From: a virus
Direction: 5' to 3' (one strand)
Length of the DNA stretch: 27,766 bases
IMG/VR virus record: IMGVR_UViG_3300021378_000128
Coordinates: 1-27,766 of that record
In this document: positions 3,001 through 23,940 of the stretch, piece after piece
Layout of the letters: each line of letters begins with the position of its first letter
How positions within the stretch are numbered: position 1 is the first letter of the stretch
Program-made: the position numbers and the translations under genes
The notes under the pieces: generated by a model
What the model was told of the DNA's origin: nothing
The model's database searches: none
The model's input: only the letters and a program-made list of their open reading frames with translations

Positions 3001-3277
3001 GTTCAGCCGTGTCAATGAAATTTTCACGTGTGTTTAAATCATTTCTAAAAGCAAGACCTTGACCCATAAAAGCCATGACATCAAGCAGAGCAATAAACTC
3101 TGAACTTTCAATATAATCGTTGTAGGTTTCAGGATAGTAAAGACGTAGATAATCGATAAAACTTTTTCTTAGTGTCTCATAATCATATGATCGGAAGTCT
3201 GCCTCACGAAAGGTTTCGTAAATTGCTTTCCAATCATTTACTCCAAAGAGTCCTGATTGCCTTGAACTTGTAGCCAT
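1..3277 (-). CDS. 6: Baseplate wedge protein gp6-like (3' end cut off)
   Basis: The reading frame is open without a stop from the ATG at 3277 to the left edge, 1092 codons, so the C-terminus lies outside the window. In T4, gp6 forms the wedge ring that links baseplate wedges around the hub and changes shape during sheath contraction. The N-terminus (MATSSRQSGLFGVNDWKAIY, then an ESSEFIALLDVMAFMGQGLA-type stretch) matches my recollection of gp6 in marine T4-like phages, and gp25 lies directly upstream as in T4. T4 gp6 is about 660 residues, so this protein is much longer, presumably with inserted or added domains in the C-terminal half. An AGGG ribosome binding site sits about 8 nt before the ATG, and a GATAAATA late-promoter motif lies 19 nt upstream. 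The N-terminal identity is firm; the function of the extra length is unknown. Confidence 0.85.
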   Translation of the reverse strand, partial: MATSSRQSGLFGVNDWKAIYETFREADFRSYDYETLRKSFIDYLRLYYPETYNDYIESSEFIALLDVMAFMGQGLAFRNDLNTRENFIDTAERRDSVVKLADLVSYTPKRNTCASGYLKISSIRTSENVIDSNGVNLSNVPISWNDPSNRNWLDQMNSVINAALVDSQKIGRPGNSADILGVTTSEYGIQIPANSTPIVPFTTQVDGTSMNFELVSATSLDQDYIYEIPPAPTSQINMLYRNDKLGFGSPNTGFMFYFKQGTLQPYNFNFQQQISNQTINIDIAGVNQTDTWLYQTTVDNTLGLWKQVENVYADAYLQTESSTKKIFSVGSRANDEVTYVFGDGVFSEMPVGNFRAFVRSSNALTYTIDPSEMNGVAVAITYVSRTGQNETLTMNLALPVSVTNAQGRESLSAIKQRAPTRYYTQNRMVNGEDYTNFPYTLYNSIVKSKAINRSSIGVSKNLDLLDPTGKYSSTNSFGDDGALYQDGTDGFLTLQASNTSDIIQFFTDDLASVLALNRANQYYIQNYTRYAYPGTGGGTTLYWKTSSVDSSSETGYFYSLAGTIEQPQPLGTFTTTNAKYITTGALLKFVAPVGSYFDSENRLVAGAPTGGEKTYIWSTILNVVGDGNNNGEGKFANGQGPVTVNGYVPNGVTITEIIPVFDNSLSSTIIQQAILKIELQQDFTLLFNNSLLINQERWSIGAASNANYFVKFTSLGNNRYTVTYRSLTYYFGSVADTRFTYNKDELVYDPFTGKIIQDFINMLGINTVFNTAQPLGADTKVNILGQTVESDGYVNDFQVEVAATDVNNGQLILDPDFFNDITGFVNNGANTGVYVFFRTITDPVNLTRQLIVPSSDIVFTYGTKNQIEIVKYEFPVGQLFYAYTDNKFYKSVQDPTITTPNYIMTEQLDYSVKSGRQGLDYQYRHNANNTTRIDPATTNIVDLYLVTQSYYTAFNNYIKDTTDTVKKPDQPTLNELNTIYPKVQDFKMLSDSVILNSVTFKPLFGAKADQSLRATIKVVKAQTTNASDSEIRSSVLSAMDSYFDINNWNFGDTFFFTELSAYLHEQIGELVSSVILVSDDPEKLFGDLYEIK

Positions 3278-3296
3278 AGTTTTTCCCTGTTTCAAG

Positions 3297-3304
3297 TATT
3301 TATC
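3297..3304 (-). promoter_or_regulatory. Late promoter motif GATAAATA for gp6
   Basis: GATAAATA on the minus strand resembles the T4 late promoter core TATAAATA recognised by gp55. It lies in the short gp25-gp6 gap, 19 nt before the gp6 ATG. Transcription would start some 6 nt downstream, leaving a short leader that still contains the AGGG ribosome binding site. Confidence 0.6.
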
Positions 3305-3311
3305 TTTATGG

Positions 3312-3326
3312 AAAAACCGAGTTTTT
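3312..3326 (-). terminator. Small A/T-rich hairpin after gp25
   Basis: Directly after the gp25 stop, the minus strand reads AAAAAC-TCG-GTTTTT, a 6-bp stem with a 3-nt loop ending in a T run. It could be a weak terminator for the gp25 transcript, placed just before the gp6 late promoter. The stem has a single G-C pair, so termination is uncertain. Confidence 0.35.
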
Positions 3327-3776
3327 TTATGCTAGAGCGGCAGTATTAGTCTGTGAATTGAAGAATAATGCTAAATCTCCAGCATTATTGTATGGATTAA
3401 TAGATAGTTGAACTTCTATTAGAATACCATTTTCTTTAGGAAAAGCACGAATTGTATTAATATCGATTCTAGGGTCTAGGCTTGCTACTCGTCTAACTTC
3501 ATTTTGTATTTCTACTTGCACATCTGCTGTGTTAGGTTCAAACACAAAGTCCCATAATGTAGTACCATAACTCGGTTGTCCGACTTTTTCGCCTTTTCTA
3601 ATGTTTAAAGCATTAACTAAATCTTGTATAACAAGTTGTTCATCTACAAGTTTAAACTTTTTACCAAAAACTATAGGGTTTGTTATGCCGTTTGCTTGAT
3701 TATCGATTGCAGGAGGCGGATTAACCGTTCTAGGTTTATCTGCGTTTACTGTTGAGAATCCTACGTAAGTTGCCAT
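3327..3776 (-). CDS. 25: Baseplate wedge protein gp25
   Basis: A 149-residue protein of the gp25/TssE-like family. In T4 it sits at the inner baseplate, contacts gp6 and gp53, and helps start sheath assembly. The central and C-terminal part carries the family signature: a QDLVNALNIRKGEK segment (about residues 51-64), then SYGTTLWDFVFEP (about 69-81), then an amphipathic helix with ...VRRVASLDPRI. The length is close to T4 gp25 (132 residues). It lies between gp5 and gp6 on the same strand. No convincing ribosome binding site precedes the ATG; instead an exact TATAAATA late-promoter core ends only 5 nt before it (see findings). The assignment is secure. Confidence 0.92.
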   Translation of the reverse strand: MATYVGFSTVNADKPRTVNPPPAIDNQANGITNPIVFGKKFKLVDEQLVIQDLVNALNIRKGEKVGQPSYGTTLWDFVFEPNTADVQVEIQNEVRRVASLDPRIDINTIRAFPKENGILIEVQLSINPYNNAGDLALFFNSQTNTAALA

Positions 3777-3781
3777 AATAC

Positions 3782-3789
3782 TATTTATA
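3782..3789 (-). promoter_or_regulatory. Late promoter core TATAAATA directly before gp25
   Basis: An exact copy of the T4 late promoter core on the minus strand, in the 15-nt gap between the gp5 stop and the gp25 ATG, with 5 nt (GTATT) between motif and ATG. If used like a T4 late promoter, the transcript would start at or beside the start codon and be leaderless. Confidence 0.55.
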
Positions 3790-3791
3790 TC

Positions 3792-6700
3792 CTATCTTAG
3801 TTTCCAAGTTCCTACATGATCCCAGTACCAATACCCGCCACCGCCATATCCGGACATTGCGACAGAACCAACTTCACCTTCGTAAATGTAAACATTTTGA
3901 CCTACTCCACCTTGTCCGTCAGTCGGAGGAGTGCCACCAGAAACGATTGCTTCAACTGTATTCTCTACTACAGGTTCACCGTCATCAACTATTTCATTTT
4001 CAACAATAAATGATTCTTGTTGCGGAACAAATGTTTTTGTAGTTGTGGCTATAATATTTGAATATGTATTATTATATTCGTTACCATAAATGTTTGTAGG
4101 GTTTTCTCCAAATCCTAATTCAACTGGAGTACTAGGTCTATAATCATCTCCTGTTGGTTGTTGAGTATTACTTTCTGTAGTAATGTCCTGATTTTGTACT
4201 GAAGCAAGATTGACTGCTTGTTCGATTTCACTAAACGGATTGATCTCTGTTGTTTCTGGAGTTGCTTCTGCAACTGTTTGTGTTACAGAAGATCCGAACT
4301 GTGTTTTTGCAGTTTCAATTTTAGCAGTTAGTGCTTTAAGTTGAGGATCTGTAGCCGCTGATTGATATGATGCTTCTGCCGCTATTATTTCTGGAGAACC
4401 TGCTGGGAAGTTTGATTGTGCTTCAAACAATGCTCGTTGTTTAGATGCAACATCTGCTTGTGCTTTATTCAATTTCTTAACATCAGCACTTAATGTTTTT
4501 CTTAATGACAGTAAAGCACTTGCGGCAGTTAATGCTCCAACTGGTATTTCGCCTAATAAATTAGGTTTGGGTATAATTGATCCAGGACCACCTAGAACTC
4601 CATCAATTAAACTTGTAATGCTTGATCTATTATATGTGTTAAGTGCTACTGTAGGTAACTTGATAGTTGACCCGCCACCTGCTGTTAGTGCTGATAATGC
4701 AGATTCTAATGCGGCTGCCGCACCTGGACTTAATGCACTTGAGAGTGCAGTTCCTACTGCATCTGATACTCCACCAATTAAATTATCTTTAACTGATCCT
4801 AATGATGAAATATCACCTAATGCTGATTCTGCTGAAGCAACTAATCCACCTACATCTGTTCCTGAGAATGCAGATGATCCGAGACTTGATAGAGAGTCTG
4901 TTACTCCACCTATTCCGTCTGCAATTGCATTAACTGATCCAGTTGCATTGTCAACTACACTACTACCTAACTTCTGTCCACCTGGCAAGTTACTTACACC
5001 TGATGCAATCGTACTTGATATAGTTGCAGTTGCTCCGCGTTGAACTTGAGTTGCGGCATTCTGTAATGTTCCTTGTTGAGTTAATGACTCAACACTAGAT
5101 GAAACACTTTTTACATCAGATACAGCAGATGATATTGCTCCGGTTGCCACTGATGATGCTTGATCTGCTATTCCTTGTACAGAATCAGTTACCCCTGATG
5201 TTGCTGAACTAAATGCGCCTTCGACTGATCCTGCACCAACAGTTGTTGCTAATGCATCAGTAATAGTAGATGTGTCTGCTAAGTCTGGCGCTTTCATACC
5301 TGCACTTGCCCCTGCAACTTTGGCTGCCGCGGCTCCTGCTAGAGCAGTTAAGTCTTGTGGTTTGTCAGGGCCGGCTTCAAGTGTGCCAAATGATGCTACT
5401 ATTGATTTAAATGATGATGCTGAGGCTCCTATATTTGTATCTATTCCTACACCGAGTTCAGGCAACGCTCCGCCCAATGTGTTTAATGCTTTAGCAACTC
5501 CACCTACTCCACCTGATAATTGTGATGCTACAACTGATTCTGCACCTGCCTTCATTGTATCTAAGACACCTTGGGTTGCACCAGAAATTGCTCCTGAGAT
5601 TCCGCCTTCTGTAGCCTTACTAATGGCTCCACTAACTTCACTAACATTGTCTCCTAAATTACCAGTAGATGCTACAGATGAAATAGTTCCTGAAACAACA
5701 GCACCTAATCCTCCGGGTGCTTCTTTTCCTGTAATTGCTCCTACTGTTTGTAATGCTTTTTGTCCTTTTTGTAATGTTGACACTACACTTTTTGCTTGTG
5801 CAGAGTTTGAACCTATAAATTGCTCGGCTGTATTAATACCGCTTTTGCCTGTAAATGATGCAGACGGTAAAACATTAGTTGGTACTCTGCCTTGTGCCGC
5901 GCCTGTCGCACTGCCACCTACATTAGCAGATACTAAAGTGTTTACTAATGTATCTGCTCCTGGCTTAAGAATTCCACCATCAGCCATTTGAGATGCTGTT
6001 TGACCAAATTTTCCTAAAGTCACTGCTGGCCCGGTTGCTGTATCTACTATGCCGGCAACATCTCCAAACTGGGCAAGTTCACTAGCGGCCGCTTTACCAG
6101 AAAGCAATGTTGACGTAACATTTTTATCTAACGCATCACTGATTCCTCCTACTTCTGATATTGTGGCTGCCGCTGTTGGGTTAGTTACACCAGATACGTT
6201 TCCACCTAAATCACCAAGATTATTATTTAAATTACTTAAATTACCAGATGGTTCAGCCGGTAATGCCGCTTCAGCACTTGGATCTACTTCTACGTCTGCA
6301 CCTTGATTTGCACTCATCCAAGGCATGTGAGCAGGCGCACGTGAAGTAATACTAGGTATTTTAGCAAGTGCCGCCGCCCAGCCTACTGTTTCATCGAACA
6401 GTGTGTCTGGATGCATAATTATATCTATTGGTTCTACAACATCTGGACTTAAACTTGCGGCTCCGTCGTTCAAGTGTATTTTTGATCCTTCATTAAAAAT
6501 TTCTGCGGCTGATTTTATTCCTAATTGACCCTGTGCTTCCATTGCTAATGCCGCATCTGCTTTCATTTTTATATTCTGAAGTGTATATAAACTATAGTCT
6601 TCTCCTACTCTTTGATTAAATGCTTTGTCTGCGTTAAGAGTAGTATTTTCAGAGGAGTTAAGATTTACATTTTTAGCATTTAAATTGATATTATTATCTG

Positions 6701-13680: not shown

Positions 13681-15443
13681 TCAATTTAAAACATGTAACT
13701 CTCAGAAACTTCTTAAGTGTAGGATCAGTTACTCAAGCAATTGACTTACAAAACGAAGAACTTACATTAATCTTAGGTGATAACTTAGACTTAGGTGGAG
13801 ACGGTGCTAGAAATGGTACTGGTAAGACTACTATTATACAAGCAATCAGTTATGCATTGTATGGTGTCCCACTTAACAATATCAAACAAAACAATTTAAT
13901 CAATAGAACAAACGGCAAAGGCATGATGGTCACATTAGACTTTGAGGCTAATGGTGTTGAGTATCGTATTGAACGTGGTCGTAAGCCCAATGGCATGAAG
14001 TTCTTTATTAACGGAACAGAAGAAGAAGATAACGAAGCACAGGGCGAGAATAAAGAAACACAACAAGTTATCGAAGAAATTATAGGCATGTCTTCAGTGA
14101 TGTTTAGAAACATTGTTGTACTTAATACATACAGTCAGCCCTTCTTAAGCATGACACAAGGACAGCAACGTGATATTATTGAACAGTTGCTTGGAATAAC
14201 GTTGTTATCAGAGAAAGCAGAAAAGATTAAGATAACAATTAAGAATAACAAAGAAGAAATTCAACAAGAAGAATTCAAAGTCCAAGCAATAGAAGAAGCA
14301 AACAAAAGAATTGAAGAACAAATAGATAGTCTTAAAAAGAGAGCAAGACTATGGGATAACAAGACAGCAGAAGACATTAACACGTTAAAAAATCAAATTA
14401 AAAGACTAGAAGAATTAGATATTGACGCCGAATTACTTGGACACAAGCAACTAATTGTATACAATGCTTTAGTTAAGGATCATGCAGATATCGACAAATT
14501 GATTACTAGAACTAATAATGATGTTAACCGAGAAGCAAAGGCTGTTAGCAAGTTTGAGAAAGAATTAGAGATATTAAAACAGAACAAATGTCACACTTGT
14601 GGGCAAGACTTCCATGATGACGTACATACACAAGTGTTAGCAGACAAAGAAGAAAGTTTAGTAGAACATACTAATCACTTAACCGAACTAGCAGAAGTAC
14701 AAGTAGAATTAGAGCAAGAAAAGAATTCATTGTTTGAAATAGGGGAACGTCCTAATTTGTTTTATCAATCAGAAACAGAGGCGATTGAACACAAAAACAA
14801 GATCAAAGACCTTAAGGGGCAAGTGTCTCGTAAAGAGTCTGACGAAAATCCTTATACAGATCAAATACTTGAAATGGAAGAAAGTGCATTACAAGAAGCC
14901 AATTTTGACAAAATAAACGAGTTGTCACGTTTAGGTGACCATCAGAAGTTCTTATTAGACCTTCTTACAAGCAAAGATTCATTTGTGCGTAAAAAGATTA
15001 TTGATCAAAACTTGTCTTATCTAAACTCACGTTTAACAAATTACTTAGACAAGATGGGTCTCCCTCATCAAGTTGTCTTCCAAAATGATTTAACTGTAGA
15101 AATTACAGAGTTGGGTAGAGAACTAGACTTTGATAACTTATCTAGGGGAGAACGTAACAGATTAATCTTAGGACTATCGTTTGCATTCAGAGATGTCTGG
15201 GAAAACTTATACTTCCCAATCAATACATTGTTTATTGACGAGTTGATTGACTCAGGACTTGACACAATCGGTGTTGAAAATGCAATGGCTATTCTTAAAG
15301 ATATGACACGTAGACGTAACAAGTCTGTTTGGTTAGTATCACACAGAGAAGAATTAGCAGGTAGAGTTGCTAGTGTATTACAAGTTATTAAAGAGAACGG
15401 ATTTACAACATACAACTCGACAAGGGAGTTGGAGGAGTTGTGA
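13677..15443 (+). CDS. 46: Recombination endonuclease subunit gp46 (Rad50/SbcC-type ATPase)
   Basis: A 588-residue SMC-like ATPase, close to T4 gp46 (560). It has an N-terminal Walker A (GARNGTGKTT, about residues 43-52), a long charged coiled-coil arm, a zinc hook CHTC (C305, C308), a second coil, the ABC signature LSRGE (about 488-492), Walker B LFIDEL (about 518-523) and a switch histidine in LVSHREE (H556). Together with gp47 it forms the end-resecting nuclease. Overlapping junctions on both sides (ATGA with gp47; GTGA with the radical SAM gene) place it in one operon. All key residues are present. Confidence 0.95.
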   Translation: MINLKHVTLRNFLSVGSVTQAIDLQNEELTLILGDNLDLGGDGARNGTGKTTIIQAISYALYGVPLNNIKQNNLINRTNGKGMMVTLDFEANGVEYRIERGRKPNGMKFFINGTEEEDNEAQGENKETQQVIEEIIGMSSVMFRNIVVLNTYSQPFLSMTQGQQRDIIEQLLGITLLSEKAEKIKITIKNNKEEIQQEEFKVQAIEEANKRIEEQIDSLKKRARLWDNKTAEDINTLKNQIKRLEELDIDAELLGHKQLIVYNALVKDHADIDKLITRTNNDVNREAKAVSKFEKELEILKQNKCHTCGQDFHDDVHTQVLADKEESLVEHTNHLTELAEVQVELEQEKNSLFEIGERPNLFYQSETEAIEHKNKIKDLKGQVSRKESDENPYTDQILEMEESALQEANFDKINELSRLGDHQKFLLDLLTSKDSFVRKKIIDQNLSYLNSRLTNYLDKMGLPHQVVFQNDLTVEITELGRELDFDNLSRGERNRLILGLSFAFRDVWENLYFPINTLFIDELIDSGLDTIGVENAMAILKDMTRRRNKSVWLVSHREELAGRVASVLQVIKENGFTTYNSTRELEEL

Positions 15444-16456
15444 GTTTAGCCTTATGGCACTGGCACATTGAGATCAGCAGTAAGTGTACACTAAAATGTC
15501 CTCGATGTCCAAGACAAGAAGTACCTGACACATTAGTCAGTACTGAACTTAAACTAGATTTCTTTAAACAAAATTTTCCTGCGTTCTTTATATTAGAACA
15601 TGTAGAGAAACTCACATTCTGCGGTGACGATGGCGATCCTATCTATGCACATGACTTCATTGAAGTCATCCAGTATTTCAAATCTATAAAGCCTAGTATA
15701 GCAATCGTTATTGTCACTAACGGATCATATAAAAACGAAGACTGGTGGACAAGACTAGCAGAACTATTAGATGAACAAGATCAAATTCACTTCAGTATCG
15801 ACGGCTGGGACCATGAGAGTAATAATCTGTATAGAATCAATTCTAATTGGTCTAGCATCATCACAGGCGTCTCTATCATCAATGATAAGTCTAGTTGTTA
15901 CACCGTATGGGACGCAATAGGCTTTAAATTTAATGAAGATAAGATAGGTGACATGCAAAACTATGCAAGAGAGTTAGGCTTTGATGCATTTCAGTTAACA
16001 AGAAGCACTAAGTTCGGTAAGATATACGAAGACTCTTATGGGAAAGAAGATGCTTTACAACCACGTGACGATCTGTTATCATCTAGTCATAGATTTGAAA
16101 GAGAAGTGTTTACTTTTACAGACAAAACAATTAAAGAACCTTGGATGAAGACAAACATTAAGTTATATGATGAATCTAAGTTAGTAGGAAATGAACGACC
16201 TCTATGTCACATAGGCAATAAAGGTAGTTACATTAATGCTAGGGGAGAATTTTACCCCTGTTGTTGGGTCGCAACAAGATATGGACACAACAACAAATGG
16301 AACGAAATTGGCAAGAAATATAATCTCCATGAATTGAGATTACCCAAAATTGTAAAAGATAAATTCTGGGAAGCCGACTTCATACATGACTCTTACGAGT
16401 GCCAGACAAAGTGTGCCCATCATCGGGTAGATAAAAATTATGCCACCGAGTGGTAA
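15440..16456 (+). CDS. Radical SAM enzyme with twitch/SPASM-like end
   Basis: A 338-residue radical S-adenosylmethionine protein. The CTLKCPRC motif (C16, C20, C23) has the CxxxCxxC spacing that binds the catalytic 4Fe-4S cluster, and FCGDDGDPIY (about 59-68) corresponds to the SAM-binding GGE-like motif. C-terminal cysteines C256, C274, C275, C321 and C325 suggest an auxiliary cluster of the twitch/SPASM type. Enzymes with this layout often modify peptides or proteins, but no substrate is evident here. Such proteins occur in other marine T4-like phages as far as I recall, and their function is not established. The start is GTG, supported by GGAGGAG 2 nt before it and by a GTGA overlap with gp46, so it is co-translated with the recombination genes. 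Confidence 0.85.
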   Translation: MSLALWHWHIEISSKCTLKCPRCPRQEVPDTLVSTELKLDFFKQNFPAFFILEHVEKLTFCGDDGDPIYAHDFIEVIQYFKSIKPSIAIVIVTNGSYKNEDWWTRLAELLDEQDQIHFSIDGWDHESNNLYRINSNWSSIITGVSIINDKSSCYTVWDAIGFKFNEDKIGDMQNYARELGFDAFQLTRSTKFGKIYEDSYGKEDALQPRDDLLSSSHRFEREVFTFTDKTIKEPWMKTNIKLYDESKLVGNERPLCHIGNKGSYINARGEFYPCCWVATRYGHNNKWNEIGKKYNLHELRLPKIVKDKFWEADFIHDSYECQTKCAHHRVDKNYATEW

Positions 16457-17061: not shown

Positions 17062-17087
17062 CATATAGTATAGTCGTAATTTATACT
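17058..17087 (+). promoter_or_regulatory. Candidate sigma70 promoter for the structured RNA
   Basis: TTAACA (17058-17063, one mismatch to TTGACA) and TATACT (17082-17087) are 18 nt apart and overlap the nuclease stop codon. Transcription would start near 17094, at the beginning of the hairpin-dense region. The -10 box is also the right arm of a 6-bp inverted repeat, AGTATA/TATACT. Confidence 0.5.
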
Positions 17088-17093
17088 CGACTC

Positions 17094-17520
17094 TCCTTGA
17101 GGAACCCATTGTAGTGATGGGCAACAGAACTGGAGTAGTGTCTTACAGACATATAAACCGACAAGGCAATCGTTATGGTAGCGAACCTTGAATGAGTCTA
17201 TATCTATTTTGATTTGATGATATAGAACATGCGTTGCTGAGAGGTTACACTTATTAGTGTAATTGGCTCAACTACAACCCAGCAAACTTTACAGGGCAAC
17301 CGGTAGCAATTGATTATAGTAACGTAATCGATTGGGGATAATCAACATGGATGACAGGGGGTAATGACCTGAACCGTGGTAGTGTTTGATAGCACTACCA
17401 TGGCTTCTAAAAGGTAATAAGACTTAAACAATAACCATTTAGAATTTTTAATTAATCCTTTTAAAAAAGAAATTACGAATGAACGAAGTGAATGAGTAAT
17501 TGGGTCTTCTTTGAAGACCC
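17094..17520 (+). ncRNA. Candidate structured noncoding RNA
   Basis: No protein gene is visible between 17062 and 17538; instead about ten hairpins follow one another. The main stems are CCCAT/ATGGG (17105-17121), GTGTCT/AGACAT (17138-17152), CAAGG/CCTTG (17162-17190), TCTATATC/GATATAGA (17197-17226), TTGCTG/CAGCAA (17234-17285) enclosing GGTTACAC/GTGTAATT (17243-17264), a 10-bp stem (17307-17334), an 11-bp stem (17374-17403), TTCTAAA/TTTAGAA (17405-17444) and a final 8-bp hairpin (17502-17520). Five G-U pairs in four of these stems would be A-C mismatches in the opposite transcript, which points to the plus strand. It could be a stand-alone RNA or the structured 3' end of the early operon mRNA. 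I recognise no known family: no group I or II core, tRNA, tmRNA or RNase P signature. Confidence 0.6.
17502..17520 (+). terminator. Hairpin at the end of the structured region
   Basis: GGGTCTTC (17502-17509) pairs perfectly with GAAGACCC (17513-17520) around a TTT loop, between two convergent genes. It is the likely 3' boundary of plus-strand transcripts and may also stop minus-strand transcripts from gp26. Neither side has a good T run (TTAAGAATG follows on the plus strand), so termination is probable but not certain. Confidence 0.55.
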
Positions 17521-17538
17521 TTAAGAATGTTCTAGTGT

Positions 17539-17727
17539 TTAGAAGAATGGCAGTTGAGTTTTCTTAGTAGTTTCTAAGTGATCTTCTATCATATCGTTTA
17601 TGGCTTTTCTTTCTGATTGTGACATGTTAAGGACATCTTCATACGTGGCACCTCCACGCATATACCAGGATAAAGTCATTGCGTTTGACTTGATTCCCTG
17701 CGTGTATTTTTCGTAATCTGATATCAA
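17539..17727 (-). CDS. Small conserved tail/baseplate assembly protein, likely -1 frameshift extension of gp26
   Basis: A 62-codon frame with no ATG start; the earliest plausible initiator is a TTG at 17727, with AGGGG 9 nt upstream. The sequence NAMTLSWYMRGGATYEDVLN, then MSQSERKAIND and ...ETTKKTQLPFF, resembles a small conserved protein found next to gp26 in marine T4-like phages. The frame stays open upstream of the TTG into the end of gp26, where a TTTTTTC slippery site could join the two (see findings). I infer a tail or baseplate assembly chaperone part comparable to the T half of lambda gpGT, perhaps standing where T4 has gp51; homology to gp51 is not shown. It may be made both as a fusion and separately. 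Confidence 0.65.
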   Translation of the reverse strand: MISDYEKYTQGIKSNAMTLSWYMRGGATYEDVLNMSQSERKAINDMIEDHLETTKKTQLPFF

Positions 17728-17762
17728 CTCTCTTATCCCCTCAGGGTCGAGTGTAAGGAGTC

Positions 17763-18626
17763 TTAGGCGAAAAAATCCGATGCGTTCAATGTAAATGGTT
17801 GCTTGTACTCATGTCCACATTCTTCTTTTTCAGGATCATCTGCGCCTGCTGTGCATACGATAGTAAGAGGTTTGATAGTTGAATTTTCTCTAAGATCAGA
17901 GTTAAAGTCTCTGATTGCTTCATATGTTTTGGTATCTGCATGTTTTAAGAAATCAAGTATGTGTTCATTCTCTGTTACTTCTCCTTCAGGAGTTACAATT
18001 TTTGTAATAGCATTAGATAGTACTACCATAGTTAACTCAGTGATATCGATCAATGCTTGTTGACCTTGATCCATACGTTCTTTATCATCAATGATTTTAG
18101 TTAAGTCTTTGTATTTTGCTTGGATATCAAATTGAGCAAGTGCAGAATTATTCATTTCTTTATAATTTAGTGGAGCAAAATAAATTTCTAATCCATTTAA
18201 CTTCATCGGTATATGAAAGTCACCGGCTTTTAATGATTGTAATAGAACTTGTAGATTAATACCATATGTTCCTTCTTCTCCGCATTTCTCACATTTAGAT
18301 TCAACATCGATAGTTTCTTGTCCACCTGCGGCTTTGATTGAAATCAACACAGTATCTAAGTCAGTGCTTAATAATGCCCAAGGATTTTTAATTGCAGGAA
18401 TACAACTCTTAATGATTTCAGTAATAGCACTTCCATTAAACAATGCATCTGGAGTCTTTGTAGTGATCTCATCAATTGCTGTCATTGGATATACTGGTAG
18501 TTCTTTGCCTTCATCAGGCCATTCAATGTCTTCTGGCCCGTACGACTCTCCGCCTGAGGGCAGACTGATGTGTACTGCTGGTCTACGAAAAAATTGACGT
18601 AGCGGATTATTTTCATTCATGCTCAT
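17763..18626 (-). CDS. 26: Baseplate hub/assembly protein gp26
   Basis: A 287-residue protein. The N-terminal half has the gp26 pattern: NPLRQFFRRPAVHISLPSGG, YGPEDIEW, YPMTAIDEI, PDALFNGSAITEIIKSCIPAI. T4 gp26 is 208 residues and is needed for hub assembly. Cysteines C112 and C115 (CEKC), with C258, C270 and H272 near the end, could bind zinc. The ATG at 18626 has GGGG about 7 nt upstream and a late-promoter motif at 18682-18689. The gene ends in GAT TTT TTC GCC TAA, which contains a correctly phased -1 slippery heptamer. It is divergent from the tape-measure-like gene, and tail-assembly chaperones commonly neighbour tape measure genes. Confidence 0.85.
   Translation of the reverse strand: MSMNENNPLRQFFRRPAVHISLPSGGESYGPEDIEWPDEGKELPVYPMTAIDEITTKTPDALFNGSAITEIIKSCIPAIKNPWALLSTDLDTVLISIKAAGGQETIDVESKCEKCGEEGTYGINLQVLLQSLKAGDFHIPMKLNGLEIYFAPLNYKEMNNSALAQFDIQAKYKDLTKIIDDKERMDQGQQALIDITELTMVVLSNAITKIVTPEGEVTENEHILDFLKHADTKTYEAIRDFNSDLRENSTIKPLTIVCTAGADDPEKEECGHEYKQPFTLNASDFFA
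17769..17775 (-). promoter_or_regulatory. Candidate -1 ribosomal frameshift site TTTTTTC
   Basis: The minus strand reads T TTT TTC in the zero frame of gp26, three codons before its stop: the X XXY YYZ arrangement required for -1 slippage. Slipping yields a product of about 362 residues: gp26 residues 1-286, then 14 linker residues (RLRLLTLDPEGIRE), then the 62-codon frame. No strong downstream stem was found; only a short CCC-TGA-GGG lies nearby. Confidence 0.6.
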
Positions 18627-18732: not shown

Positions 18733-21700
18733 ATGGACGATTTTGATCCGGAACAGTTGAGGGAATTTGAAGAAAATTTAAGATCCATGAATGCCTCTAT
18801 GGGCTCAACTACTAATGCCTTAAACTCATTAGCCGCACAATTAGAGAAGTTAGCCGATCAGCAAATTGATAGTTCAAAGAAACTAAGTAAAGGAATGGCA
18901 GACTTAAGTAATCAAGTCAGCCAAGAAACAGAATTAAAAAAAGCCGTTAATGAAGCAGATCAGGACGTAAAAATAGCCGCTGAAGCATTAGAAAGGTCTT
19001 TCAAATTAGCATCATCTGCTGTTACAGATTTCTCAGCACAGATATTATCAGGTAAAGAAGGATTTTCTAAATACGGATCTGCATTATCAGGATTAGGAGA
19101 CTCTACTGCTGAATTAACATCTACTATGGGTCCTCTTGCAAAAGGCATTGGTATTGCAATTGATCTCTTTACTAAACTAGCCGCTGTAATGATGGCTCAA
19201 ACTGACATGCAAAATCAGTTTGTAAAAGACATGAACAGAATGGGTGTTATTGCAGGCACTACTTCTGAAGAACTTACAGATTTAGCAAGAGACGCAGGCT
19301 ATGCCGCAACTGATTTAGAAAAACTAACTCCTATAGTGCAAAGTGTAGGTGAAGGACTCGCAACATTCGGTACTGGTACTACACAAGGTACAAAAGCATT
19401 ACTAGAAATGTTTAAGATGGTAGATTCCCAAGAAGCAGATATGCGTAGATATGGGTATACACTTGAAGAAGCACAAGAACAAATGGGCTTCTATGTCAAT
19501 CTTCAAAGACAATCAGGTATCATATTAAAGTCAAAAGACGTAGACGAAATTAAAATGCGTAAACTGACAATGGACTATGCTAAAAGTCTAGTCACACTAT
19601 CTGAATTAACAGGTAAACAAGCAGAGCAAATGAAACAGGAGCAACAAGTTGTTGCTATGGAAATGCAAAATCAAATTTCTAATGTTGCTCGACAGCAAGA
19701 ATTAAATGATTTACGTGAACAAATAGACCAAGAAACAAACTCTGCAAGAAAAGCAGAATTAACAGCAAGACATAAACAGTTACAAGACGAAGAAGACACA
19801 CGTGCCGCGGCTATGAACCGATTCAGTGCTACATTAGGTCCTCAATTTAATACACAATTGCAACGTGTTCTAAGAACAGGTGCATTTGACGAAAGTACTA
19901 AAGCATTATCAATGATGGGCTTCCAAGCAGGAGAACTTAAAAAGCAATTTGAAAATGTAAAAGTAGATACTCCTGAATATGATGCTCTTATGGACAGCAT
20001 AGAACAACAATTTAGAGACGGTGTAATAGGTCAAATAGAAACATTTGGTGGTGCGGCTCAATATATGGGAACAGAAGCAGAAGCCTTCTTAGCATCAGTT
20101 GGTGTATCCAGAGAAGCATTACAAGCAATGCTAGTCATAGAAGAAGATAGAGCCGGACAAGTTGCAGATGCTAATAAAAAAATATTAGGCTCAACAGAAG
20201 AAGGAGCAGATGCTCAAAAAGATACGGCAGCCGGATTACAAGTATTTGAACGTAATGTAAGAACAGGAGCAGACGAATTCTTAGACAGTATTAACATCTT
20301 TAATACTTCACTGAATGCTCAAATATTGGCTATGGGCGCCTTAACAGCGGCCGCAATTGCCGCTTCAGTAGCATTAGGTAGAATGGCAATGATGGGTGGC
20401 GCAGGGACGTTAGGCAAATTGTTTGGAATGGGAGGCAAAGGCGGTAAAGGGCAATATAGAGATCCTAAAACAGGCCGATTTGCAAAAGCTCCTGTCGGCA
20501 CGATGTCTAAAATAGGATCTAAACTTGCACCAATGGCAAAAGTAGGTGGCGGCTTAGTTGCTGGCGCAGTAGCAGTCGGTTCGGCCGCATATGAACGTCA
20601 TGGTGCTATGAATGATATTGATAGAAACTTCTTTGAGAAAACACAAGGCATGGATAAAAATTCTTCTCAATATCAAAGAGCAAAAGATGAAGCAGACATT
20701 GAGAGAAAAGGTGCAAATAGAAAAGCCGTAGGTCAAGGAGCAGGTGGAGCAGGTGGAGCCCTTGCAGGAGCAGCCATGGGAGCCGCAATAGGCTCTGCTG
20801 TGCCTATTATCGGAACAGCAATCGGAGGACTGATCGGTGCAGGTTTAGGTGCTTGGATGGGATCAGAATTAGGATCAACACTTGGTGAAGTACTATCTCC
20901 TGAAGAATTGAAAGCCCATGAAGCATCTGAAAAAGAAATTGCTTTAATGTCAACCGAAGAAAGAGAAGCATGGCAAAAACAATATGATCAGGCACAAAAG
21001 GCAATTGATCTTGCAGAAAAAGAATTAGAAGAAACAAGGAAATTAAATTCTGAAAACTTAAGATTAGCACAAGATGCTGAACTTTATGATAAAGACCTAA
21101 TAGGTGCTAGTGAAATCAATTGGCAAAAACTCGGAGAGTTAAAAGACGGCACTGATGAACAAAAAGAACAATTAAAAGGCATGCTTGCCGCTATCTTAGA
21201 TGATAATGACTTGAGAGATGCTGATAGAGCAACAATTGAGGAACAACTCAAGTTACTTGAAGGTGTTGAAGAAAATACATCTCCTGAAGAAGAAACAGAA
21301 GAAAAAAGTTTTGCTACAATGACTCAAGCAGAACTTTATGCTCACTTTGAGAAAGTAAGAGATGGCGAGCAACCAGACATTGCAGACGATAAAAACGTTA
21401 TTGGAACAGATAATGCCGAGGGTGATCAAGGTTCAGTAGGTCCAGACGGTATTGTTACACTTGCCGGGGAAGACGACGCCGTCGTTGCAGATAACGCAGA
21501 TATATCTGACGAATTAAAAGATGATGATCAATCTAAATCTTTTACTGAAAGGTTTGCAGATGCTAATAAGTCGTTAATAGGCTTCCTCAGAAACCCAATT
21601 GATACGATTAAAGGTGCTGGCAGTCCTGTAATGGCTGGTACTGAGGCTACGTATACACAAGAAGACATAGATGCACTTCCAGAAGATCAACAAGACTTAG

Positions 21701-22116
21701 TTCAAGTAGGAGAGAAGATACAAGAGGAAGCGGATGGGTGGGGTAAACTCGGCTCTGATCTTCTCAACGCATTCAACAATTCTCCACTAGTATTGGCTTA
21801 TCAGAGCATAGATGGAATAATGAATTCTGTTACTGAACTCCAAGGAGAAAAAGACGAAGAAATCTTAGCAATTGCTAAAGGAGCTGGTGAAAAAATTAAA
21901 GGCGATGACCCAGAAGAGAAACTTAGCACATCTGAGTTTGCCCAAACTGTTGATGGTGAAACACAAGGTGTAACAGAATATAATGAGCAAACGGATATTG
22001 CAAAACAGCAGTTAGCCGAGACAAGAAAGCAAAATGAACTGTTGGAAAGAGGTCTAGCACAGGGGTCTGAGCAAGTTGAGGAATTAAATAAAATTGTTAC
22101 ACGGGCCGCAGTTTAA
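18733..22116 (+). CDS. Tape-measure-like tail protein
   Basis: A 1127-residue protein. The first 400 residues are mostly helical and charged, with likely coiled coils (about 1-100 and 300-360). Three small-residue hydrophobic segments follow: about 527-545 (MGALTAAAIAASVALGRM), 603-620 (GGGLVAGAVAVGSAAY) and 665-715, a glycine-zipper stretch (ALAGAAMGAAIGSAVP, then IIGTAIGGLIGAGLGAWMG). The rest is acidic and helical. Long helices plus central hydrophobic segments are typical of phage tape measure proteins, which set tail length and enter the host membrane on infection. T4 gp29 does this job with 590 residues. gp26 on the other strand and the portal gene downstream fit a tail role. A membrane-active structural protein of another type is the alternative. 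Confidence 0.65.
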   Translation: MDDFDPEQLREFEENLRSMNASMGSTTNALNSLAAQLEKLADQQIDSSKKLSKGMADLSNQVSQETELKKAVNEADQDVKIAAEALERSFKLASSAVTDFSAQILSGKEGFSKYGSALSGLGDSTAELTSTMGPLAKGIGIAIDLFTKLAAVMMAQTDMQNQFVKDMNRMGVIAGTTSEELTDLARDAGYAATDLEKLTPIVQSVGEGLATFGTGTTQGTKALLEMFKMVDSQEADMRRYGYTLEEAQEQMGFYVNLQRQSGIILKSKDVDEIKMRKLTMDYAKSLVTLSELTGKQAEQMKQEQQVVAMEMQNQISNVARQQELNDLREQIDQETNSARKAELTARHKQLQDEEDTRAAAMNRFSATLGPQFNTQLQRVLRTGAFDESTKALSMMGFQAGELKKQFENVKVDTPEYDALMDSIEQQFRDGVIGQIETFGGAAQYMGTEAEAFLASVGVSREALQAMLVIEEDRAGQVADANKKILGSTEEGADAQKDTAAGLQVFERNVRTGADEFLDSINIFNTSLNAQILAMGALTAAAIAASVALGRMAMMGGAGTLGKLFGMGGKGGKGQYRDPKTGRFAKAPVGTMSKIGSKLAPMAKVGGGLVAGAVAVGSAAYERHGAMNDIDRNFFEKTQGMDKNSSQYQRAKDEADIERKGANRKAVGQGAGGAGGALAGAAMGAAIGSAVPIIGTAIGGLIGAGLGAWMGSELGSTLGEVLSPEELKAHEASEKEIALMSTEEREAWQKQYDQAQKAIDLAEKELEETRKLNSENLRLAQDAELYDKDLIGASEINWQKLGELKDGTDEQKEQLKGMLAAILDDNDLRDADRATIEEQLKLLEGVEENTSPEEETEEKSFATMTQAELYAHFEKVRDGEQPDIADDKNVIGTDNAEGDQGSVGPDGIVTLAGEDDAVVADNADISDELKDDDQSKSFTERFADANKSLIGFLRNPIDTIKGAGSPVMAGTEATYTQEDIDALPEDQQDLVQVGEKIQEEADGWGKLGSDLLNAFNNSPLVLAYQSIDGIMNSVTELQGEKDEEILAIAKGAGEKIKGDDPEEKLSTSEFAQTVDGETQGVTEYNEQTDIAKQQLAETRKQNELLERGLAQGSEQVEELNKIVTRAAV

Positions 22117-22149: not shown

Positions 22150-23940
22150 ATGTCATATAAAAAGAAATTTCTAAACAAGAGCGGAGTATCAAGTCCTATA
22201 TCAGGGGGCAACAGTAACTCTGGATCTTGGAATGGTGTAGGTGCTTCGGAAGCAGGTTACTCAAACACTGACTTCGGTTACAAAAATTACATGAGTAGAC
22301 TTCCTGAAGTTTACACAGGACATCCTAACAGAATAGAAAGATACAATCAATACGAGATGATGGATGTCGATGCTGAGATTAATGCATGTTTAGATATCAT
22401 TGCAGAATTCAGTACACAAAAGAACGATCACAATAAAACACCGTTTAACTTTGAGTTTAGAGATGATCCTACTCCTCATGAGATGGACTTGTTATCTAAA
22501 CAGTTACAACAATGGTGTAAGTTAAATGAATTTGATACTCGTATGTTTAAGATGTTTAGAAACGTCATCAAGTACGGAGATCAAGTCTTTGTAAGAGATC
22601 CAGAGAACTTCAAACTCTACTGGGTTGACATGGTTAAAGTCATTAAAGTTATTGTTAATGAGAGTGAAGGTAAACTTCCTGAGCAGTATGTTATTAAAGA
22701 CTTAAACATTAACTTACAGAACTTAACAGTTGCACAAAAAACAAACACAGATTTTGCCGCTAACCCAACAACAGGATTAGGTGGTACCGGTGGCGGTGGT
22801 GGAGCAGGTGGAGGCGGATATACTGTCCCGTCTATGCCATACAACACATCAGGTAGTAGATTTACATTAGGACAAGCAGAATCAGCAATCGATTCTAATC
22901 ATGTTGTTCACTTATCATTAACAGAAGGCTTAGATCGTTTCTGGCCTTTCGGACAATCAATCTTAGAGAACATCTTTAAAGTATATAAACAGAAAGAACT
23001 ATTAGAAGATGCTATCTTAATCTATCGTGTACAACGTGCGCCAGAACGTAGAATGTTTAAGATTGACGTTGGTAACATGCCTAGTCACTTAGCAATGGCA
23101 TTCGTAGACAGAATTAAAAACGAGATACATCAAAGACGTATTCCAAGTATTCATGGTGGACAGTCTGTAGTTGATGCTACATACAATCCATTGTCAATGA
23201 ATGAAGATTACTTCTTCCCAGTTACAGCAGAAGGTAGAGGATCATCTATCGAAGTTCTCCCAGGTGGACAGAACTTAGGTGAGATTGACGATCTTAAATA
23301 CTTTAATAACAGACTAGCAAGAGGACTACGTGTACCTAGTTCATACTTACCCACAGGTCCTGATGACAACACAACACCACTGAATGACGGACGTGTTGGT
23401 ACTGCTATGATACAAGAATTCAGATTCAATCAGTACTGTGAAAGACTACAGAACTACGTTTGTCAGAAACTAGATGAAGAATTCAAATTATTCTTGCGTT
23501 GGAGAGGCTTTAACATTGATACTCAAATGTTTGATATCACTTTTAATCCCCCACAAAACTTTGCCGCATATCGTCAGAGTGAATTAGACACAGCAAGAGT
23601 CAGCACATTTCAGGGTATGGAAGCATTCCCTTATATCTCTAAACGTTTTGCATTAGAAAGATTCTTAGGATTAACTGAAGAAGAAATCAATCAAAACGAA
23701 AAACTTTGGGGCGAAGAAAATACTGAAGCCCAAGACGCAGATCCAGAAGGTTCTGATCTTAGAAACATCGGAGTATCTACAGGAGACTTTGATGCAGACA
23801 TTGATACTAACGATGAAATCGAAGACCAAGAAAACTTAGATGACTTAGGTGACTTAGATGTTGCAGGCCCAGTAGGTGGTCAGGCATCAACGGCAACCGG
23901 ATCAGTAGATGGTGCAGGGGAAGTTGGCCCTGTATCTTAA
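22150..23940 (+). CDS. 20: Portal vertex protein gp20
   Basis: A 596-residue protein with clear gp20 features: YMSRLPEVYTGHPNRIERYN and DVDAEINACLDIIAEF near the N-terminus, the GLDRFWPFGQSILENIFKVY and RVQRAPERRMFKIDVGNMP helices in the middle, and LPGGQNLGEIDDLKYFNNRL towards the C-terminus. T4 gp20 is 524 residues. It forms the dodecameric portal through which DNA enters and to which the neck joins; it also starts prohead assembly. Extra features are a Gly-rich insertion (about residues 208-224, with runs of Gly) and a strongly acidic C-terminal tail from about 525. The ATG at 22150 has only a weak upstream AAGAGAA. Confidence 0.95.
   Translation: MSYKKKFLNKSGVSSPISGGNSNSGSWNGVGASEAGYSNTDFGYKNYMSRLPEVYTGHPNRIERYNQYEMMDVDAEINACLDIIAEFSTQKNDHNKTPFNFEFRDDPTPHEMDLLSKQLQQWCKLNEFDTRMFKMFRNVIKYGDQVFVRDPENFKLYWVDMVKVIKVIVNESEGKLPEQYVIKDLNINLQNLTVAQKTNTDFAANPTTGLGGTGGGGGAGGGGYTVPSMPYNTSGSRFTLGQAESAIDSNHVVHLSLTEGLDRFWPFGQSILENIFKVYKQKELLEDAILIYRVQRAPERRMFKIDVGNMPSHLAMAFVDRIKNEIHQRRIPSIHGGQSVVDATYNPLSMNEDYFFPVTAEGRGSSIEVLPGGQNLGEIDDLKYFNNRLARGLRVPSSYLPTGPDDNTTPLNDGRVGTAMIQEFRFNQYCERLQNYVCQKLDEEFKLFLRWRGFNIDTQMFDITFNPPQNFAAYRQSELDTARVSTFQGMEAFPYISKRFALERFLGLTEEEINQNEKLWGEENTEAQDADPEGSDLRNIGVSTGDFDADIDTNDEIEDQENLDDLGDLDVAGPVGGQASTATGSVDGAGEVGPVS

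Follow-up and report, generated by a model that had tools for sequence, protein, structure and literature searches.

A conserved −1 frameshift signal at the end of a gp26-like gene and a predicted two-form tail assembly chaperone in relatives of phage T4

In this marine T4-related phage, the gp26-like gene and the −1 reading frame that follows it very probably act as one gene. Its two products would be the short and long forms of a tail assembly chaperone of the G/GT type (TAC-N/TAC-NC), the long form arising by −1 programmed frameshifting. The window, by which we mean the whole stretch of DNA that was analysed, comprises 27,766 nucleotides (positions 1 to 27,766 of the IMG/VR record IMGVR_UViG_3300021378_000128). 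The features on which the argument turns are these:

17542–17769, minus strand: −1 frame, putative C-terminal extension (TAC-C / T-like), 76 aa, stop codon at 17539–17541
17726–17762, minus strand: putative hairpin that would stimulate the shift, its start about 6 nt downstream of the heptamer
17763–18626, minus strand: gp26-like gene, putative short form (TAC-N / G-like), 287 aa, stop codon TAA at 17763–17765
17769–17775, minus strand: slippery heptamer T_TTT_TTC in the gp26 frame, in phase and invariant among relatives
18733–22116, plus strand: tape-measure-like protein, 1127 aa, the presumed client, matching phrog_794 and phrog_167 (tail length tape measure)

On the minus strand the gp26-like gene ends ...GCA TCG GAT TTT TTC GCC TAA GAC TCC..., which places T_TTT_TTC in the X_XXY_YYZ phase that −1 slippage requires. 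The −1 frame then stays open through the whole small frame, for 76 codons down to 17542, and its product reads RLRLLTLDPEGIRELISDYEK...PFF. Both the phasing and the open frame had been pointed out in an initial annotation of the sequence and are confirmed here. Slippery-type heptamers occur in frame 20 times among the 7,428 codons of all window genes; a slippery-type site no more than five codons from a given stop is a chance event of about 1%, and about 0.4% of random frames would stay open for 76 codons. For the extended pattern TTTTTTCGNNTRAG the window has a single occurrence, with none expected. By these numbers alone the combination of heptamer and open −1 frame is suggestive; a chance heptamer at the end of gp26 was ruled out because the motif is conserved in relatives.

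These relatives were fetched from viral contigs separately by gp26 and by the small frame, using search patterns that exclude the heptamer. Such a comparison had been suggested as a check, and both the heptamer and the open −1 frame proved to be conserved. TTTTTTC lies in the gp26 frame in 109/109 distinct relatives, with gp26 identities from 100% down to about 31%, and in 69/69 distinct junctions of an independent cyanophage-like set fetched with P-SSM2 gp26, counts that do not represent independent events as the sampled relatives share kinship. The codon before TTT TTC is GAT, AGT, GCT, AAT or CAT, such that the amino acid varies (D, S, A, N or H) and the codon always ends in T; in the rest of these genes C-ending codons are common (TTT 597 : TTC 330; GAT 1373 : GAC 616). 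The position of the gp26 stop varies from 3 to about 30 nt behind the heptamer, being shifted by 9 nt or more in distant relatives (27 nt at the extreme), and the relation of the heptamer to the −1 frame is unchanged. Among cultured phages, TTTTTTC is present in Atu_ph07, Phosso, PA5oct, 121Q, GAP32, RaK2, SCTP-2, Vibrio 2.275.O, XaC1, P-SSM2, S-PM2, phiW-14 and KVP40, with TTTTTTT at the site instead in phiM12, HTVC008M and Cr30, and in all of them an extension is encoded in the −1 frame.

Coding in the −1 frame begins at the slip site. The frame is open and homologous from the first post-slip codon in all relatives and is conserved from residue 1, with R1 and L4 invariant across 46 sequences. 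Cultured jumbo phages have a homologue of the window's 76-residue extension in this frame, matching over its full length (hhalign 99.8%). In codons 4–14, which lie between the gp26 stop and codon 15, dN is 0.12 and dS 0.60, a dN/dS of about 0.2; downstream of codon 15, dN is 0.19 and dS 1.27, and synonymous change is reduced where the hairpin lies. As this ratio of about 0.2 is found ahead of any usable start, protein-level selection is present before the TTG at codon 15, and judged by these substitution rates purifying selection acts on the −1 frame from immediately after the slip site onwards.

The small frame had been described as having no ATG start, only a TTG. This description is right for the window, where the only early start-like codon is the TTG at 17727 (codon 15) and ATGs appear at codon 31 or later, and no start codon proved to be conserved among the relatives either. 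ATG, GTG and TTG are absent from the first 12 codons of the −1 frame in 75 of the 109, and codon 15 is TTG or ATG in only 17. An ATG at codon 2 or 3, overlapping or touching the gp26 stop, is present in a further count of 16/109, and in relatives of this kind translational coupling could also occur.

A stem about 6 nt behind the heptamer can form in most relatives (for example GGCTTCT...AGAAGCT). The stem bases also code for LL and KKL, and for this reason its folding energy was compared with synonymous-codon shuffles of the −1 frame. The mean free energy across 94 relatives was −13.7 against an expected −7.6 (mean z −2.2), and the next stretch, taken as a control, gave a mean z of −0.6. For the cyanophage-like set the mean z was −3.6, with 98% of sequences at or beyond the 5% level. 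Compensatory pairs were tallied manually against slid and shuffled controls: the eight aligned pairs held 31 compensatory cells compared with 8.7 in shuffles (maximum 14), and pairing was 81% in the stem and at most 55% once the partner was slid. The hairpin in relatives is thus more stable than the amino acids demand. The window's own hairpin is modest (z −1.5 against synonymous shuffles), and the same test found no excess in 121Q, GAP32, RaK2 and HTVC008M.

The gp26-like protein matches PF12322 (T4_baseplate; 45 bits against a cut-off of 24.5) and phrog_150 (baseplate hub; E 8e-16). The same Pfam family covers all of T4 gp26 (216 bits) and residues 1–201 of T4 gp51 (178 bits), and the two T4 proteins are therefore paralogues. 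PHROG 150 likewise spans both, with gp51 extending about 45 profile positions further, and these alignments identify gp51 as the longer form, a gp26 domain with a C-terminal extension. The family has two genes in T4 and in Campylobacter phage CP220. It has one in the window and in each of 26 further records that were searched, nine IMG/VR relatives among them; several of the IMG/VR records, the window included, are fragments. The other records with one copy are Atu_ph07, Phosso, Cr30, PA5oct, 121Q, P-SSM2, S-PM2, HTVC008M, phiM12, KVP40, phiW-14, Vi01, GAP32, RaK2, Vibrio 2.275.O, XaC1 and LR756511; SCTP-2 gave no Pfam match in this search. T4 gene 26, which runs into gene 25, ends without a slippery heptamer.

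The −1 extension of cyanophages aligns with the C-terminus of gp51 (hhalign 89%; FYQIN...YSL...MIPAER against YYKIN...YSL...MMPWER). A suggestive, co-linear match connects the extension of the window with that of cyanophages (hhalign 29%, E 6e-4), and its direct profile similarity to the gp51 C-terminus is weak (hhalign 4%). The window's gene and the T4 pair have PF12322 in common, as well as the division, predicted for the window, into a short form and one lengthened at the C-terminus; they differ in that T4 has two paralogous genes and the window lineage one gene with a shift site, whose 76-aa extension has a suggestive and at best distant relation to that of gp51. The initial annotation had proposed gp26 and the small frame as the G/GT equivalents of this phage, and at the level of the family this is supported, as T4 gp26 and gp51 are paralogues, gp51 is the longer, and phages with the shift site have one gene. 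Sequence comparison establishes the conserved shift signal, the coding in the −1 frame, the single copy and the relation to T4 gp26/gp51.

Two further loci were noted during these searches. In Salmonella phage Vi01, a −1 frame behind the single PF12322 gene encodes a gp51-like extension and has no start codon nearby; its shift site would have to be A_ATT_TTC, a non-canonical heptamer. In Caulobacter phage Cr30, a second extension-like −1 stretch (record 96168–96284, fetched locus 4001–4117; E 0.003, 44% over 39 residues) lies a long way from gp26; it overlaps the last part of a hypothetical gene (111 aa) that sits next to the large terminase. It was rejected as a gp26 extension, being not at gp26, whose own −1 frame holds the gp51-like domain.

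We modelled gp26 and the extension as separate parts with AF2. The gp26 model is confident (pLDDT 86.6), and among its matches to BFVD viral models the best of those that carry a name are T4-like baseplate (hub assembly) proteins; the extension is modelled as two long helices (pLDDT 90.2). Searches of solved structures by sequence and by fold returned no chaperone, Foldseek giving no match at E≤0.001 and the VIA-align rows containing none, a null result that proves nothing about, for example, HK97 gp13-type chaperones.

The tape-measure-like protein had been named as such in the initial annotation, and PHROG matches together with synteny make it likely that the 1127-aa divergent protein is the tape measure. 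The PHROG matches lie partly in a Gly/Ala-rich stretch, and the gene is followed by that of the portal protein gp20 at 22150. Of 79 loci, 78 have a divergent open frame of more than 250 aa upstream of gp26; RaK2, 121Q and PA5oct likewise have a divergent gene for a structural protein.

In the mechanism that we propose, most ribosomes would halt at TAA and release the 287-aa short chaperone (TAC-N, G-like). A fraction would slip back one base on T_TTT_TTC, aided by the hairpin, and, with 76 residues added, would produce the long form (TAC-NC, GT-like; ...SDFF-RLRLLTLDPE...). If the two forms work as in lambda G/GT, the client, probably the divergent 1127-aa tape-measure-like protein, would be coated by the short one, and tube subunits would be recruited through the extension. 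Here we infer the slippage itself, its efficiency and the chaperone function on the tape-measure-like protein.

The small frame might instead be an independent gene, translated from the TTG at 17727 or by re-initiation coupled to the gp26 stop, with the polyT being mere codon choice. A purine-rich stretch does lie upstream of this TTG, and several annotations of jumbo phages assign the frame a separate start that overlaps the gp26 stop, as for 121Q gene 595 and Phosso 319. Such a gene would have no need for an invariant in-phase T_TTT_TTC with a wobble T in the preceding codon, and an own start is disfavoured by the start-codon counts and by the selection seen ahead of the TTG, which leaves only a slim chance for this explanation. 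A slip during transcription, with RNA polymerase stuttering on the six T's, has a slimmer chance still. Polymerases are known to slip on stretches of T or A, and a review (PMC5009743) covers both kinds of slippage jointly, but a run of six bases is short for such slippage to be efficient. The strict X_XXY_YYZ phase, the hairpin spacing and a seventh base that in nearly all relatives is C, not a further T, favour the ribosome over the polymerase.

It is also conceivable, and in our judgement unlikely, that the frameshift is real and that gp26 is a structural part of the baseplate hub, with the extension serving only to regulate its level or assembly. PHROG and GenBank both name the family baseplate hub, and the tape-measure gene, which in lambda follows downstream, is divergent here. 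The logic of short and long forms, the tape-measure-like neighbour and the T4 gp26/gp51 pair nevertheless fit the pattern of a chaperone, and published work cited in two papers (PMC10885494, PMC12846349) assigns a short and a long fused chaperone gene to T4-like phages. We retain the frameshifted tail assembly chaperone as our reading of the locus.

Comparable arrangements are known in other tailed phages. Lambda gpG/gpGT resembles the window in having a short and a −1-extended tail assembly chaperone near the tape measure gene, where the short chaperone coats the tape measure protein and the minor longer form links it to tube subunits. Lambda uses G_GGA_AAG directly upstream of its tape measure gene, whereas the window has T_TTT_TTC and a divergent tape-measure-like gene, and between the two systems no sequence relation is shown. 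The P2 E/E' tail chaperone pair is that of a myovirus which, like the window, uses a T_TTT_TT-type site for the −1 shift; P2 E is far shorter than gp26, and its small proteins are unrelated to those of the window. Within the T4-like phages, frameshifting is reportedly kept in several groups, T4's own group using genes 26 and 51. The TAC locus of Vandenendeviridae and Andersonviridae (phage Adele, PMC12846349) resembles the window in that TAC-N has an invariant polyT motif at its end and the −1 frame is uninterrupted in all genomes; its motif is GTTTTT and, unlike in the window, its chaperone gene lies upstream of the tape measure gene.

The surroundings of the locus hold several other features. 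The convergent intergenic region at 17062–17538, adjoining the end of the −1 frame, has no evident gene and no useful Rfam match. Within it, an element at 17082–17425 (read on the plus strand) is about 80–96% identical in near relatives, compared with about 62–81% for gp26, and was found by blastn at the same place in 143 fetched loci. The core adopts a branched fold in which, over 24 relatives, two-sided compensatory changes affect 27 of the 53 consensus pairs, and the element is probably an undescribed structured RNA of roughly 330 nt belonging to this phage lineage. Unannotated gaps of about 800 bases near the chaperone genes of 121Q (locus 5037–5874), GAP32 (3061–3866) and XaC1 (3983–4776) are placed like this intergenic RNA and gave no strong Rfam match. 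Further away, a radical SAM protein gene (15440–16456, plus strand) directly follows the gp47/gp46-like recombination nuclease genes.

A frameshift fusion in a T4-like phage had been considered notable in the initial annotation; it is less so, as the chaperone pair and polyT sites have been published. Vladimirov, Gautam and Davidson 2022 (Virology 566:9-15) reportedly named T4 gp26/gp51 as the chaperone pair. Citing this work, the PRFect paper (PMC10885494) says that some T4-like phages have, in place of frameshifting, a short chaperone gene and a separate long fused one, and PMC12846349 mentions polyT −1 signals in TAC-N genes of T4-like phages. With this pair and the cited polyT sites, the idea of a frameshifted chaperone is not new. 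As far as we have checked, what is added here is the large conserved uncultured set, the jumbo-phage members, the contrast between one and two copies, and the downstream hairpin.

We lean towards the view that a single frameshifted gp26-gp51 gene was the ancestral state of the T4 superfamily (cyanophages, pelagiphages, KVP40, Caulobacter and rhizobial phages, and jumbo phages). The shift would have been boosted by a hairpin 5–6 nt downstream, kept in at least two branches, and T4 genes 26 and 51 would represent a later duplication that fixed both products, after which the shift signal decayed. The finding corrects a mis-annotated gene pair in an abundant, mostly uncultured lineage and likewise in well-known jumbo phages, among them 121Q, RaK2, GAP32 and PA5oct, in which the extension is annotated as a separate hypothetical protein or missed. 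It also offers a natural series within one family, in which a single frameshifted gene stands at one end and a duplicated pair at the other, so that the origin of T4 genes 26 and 51 can be tested.
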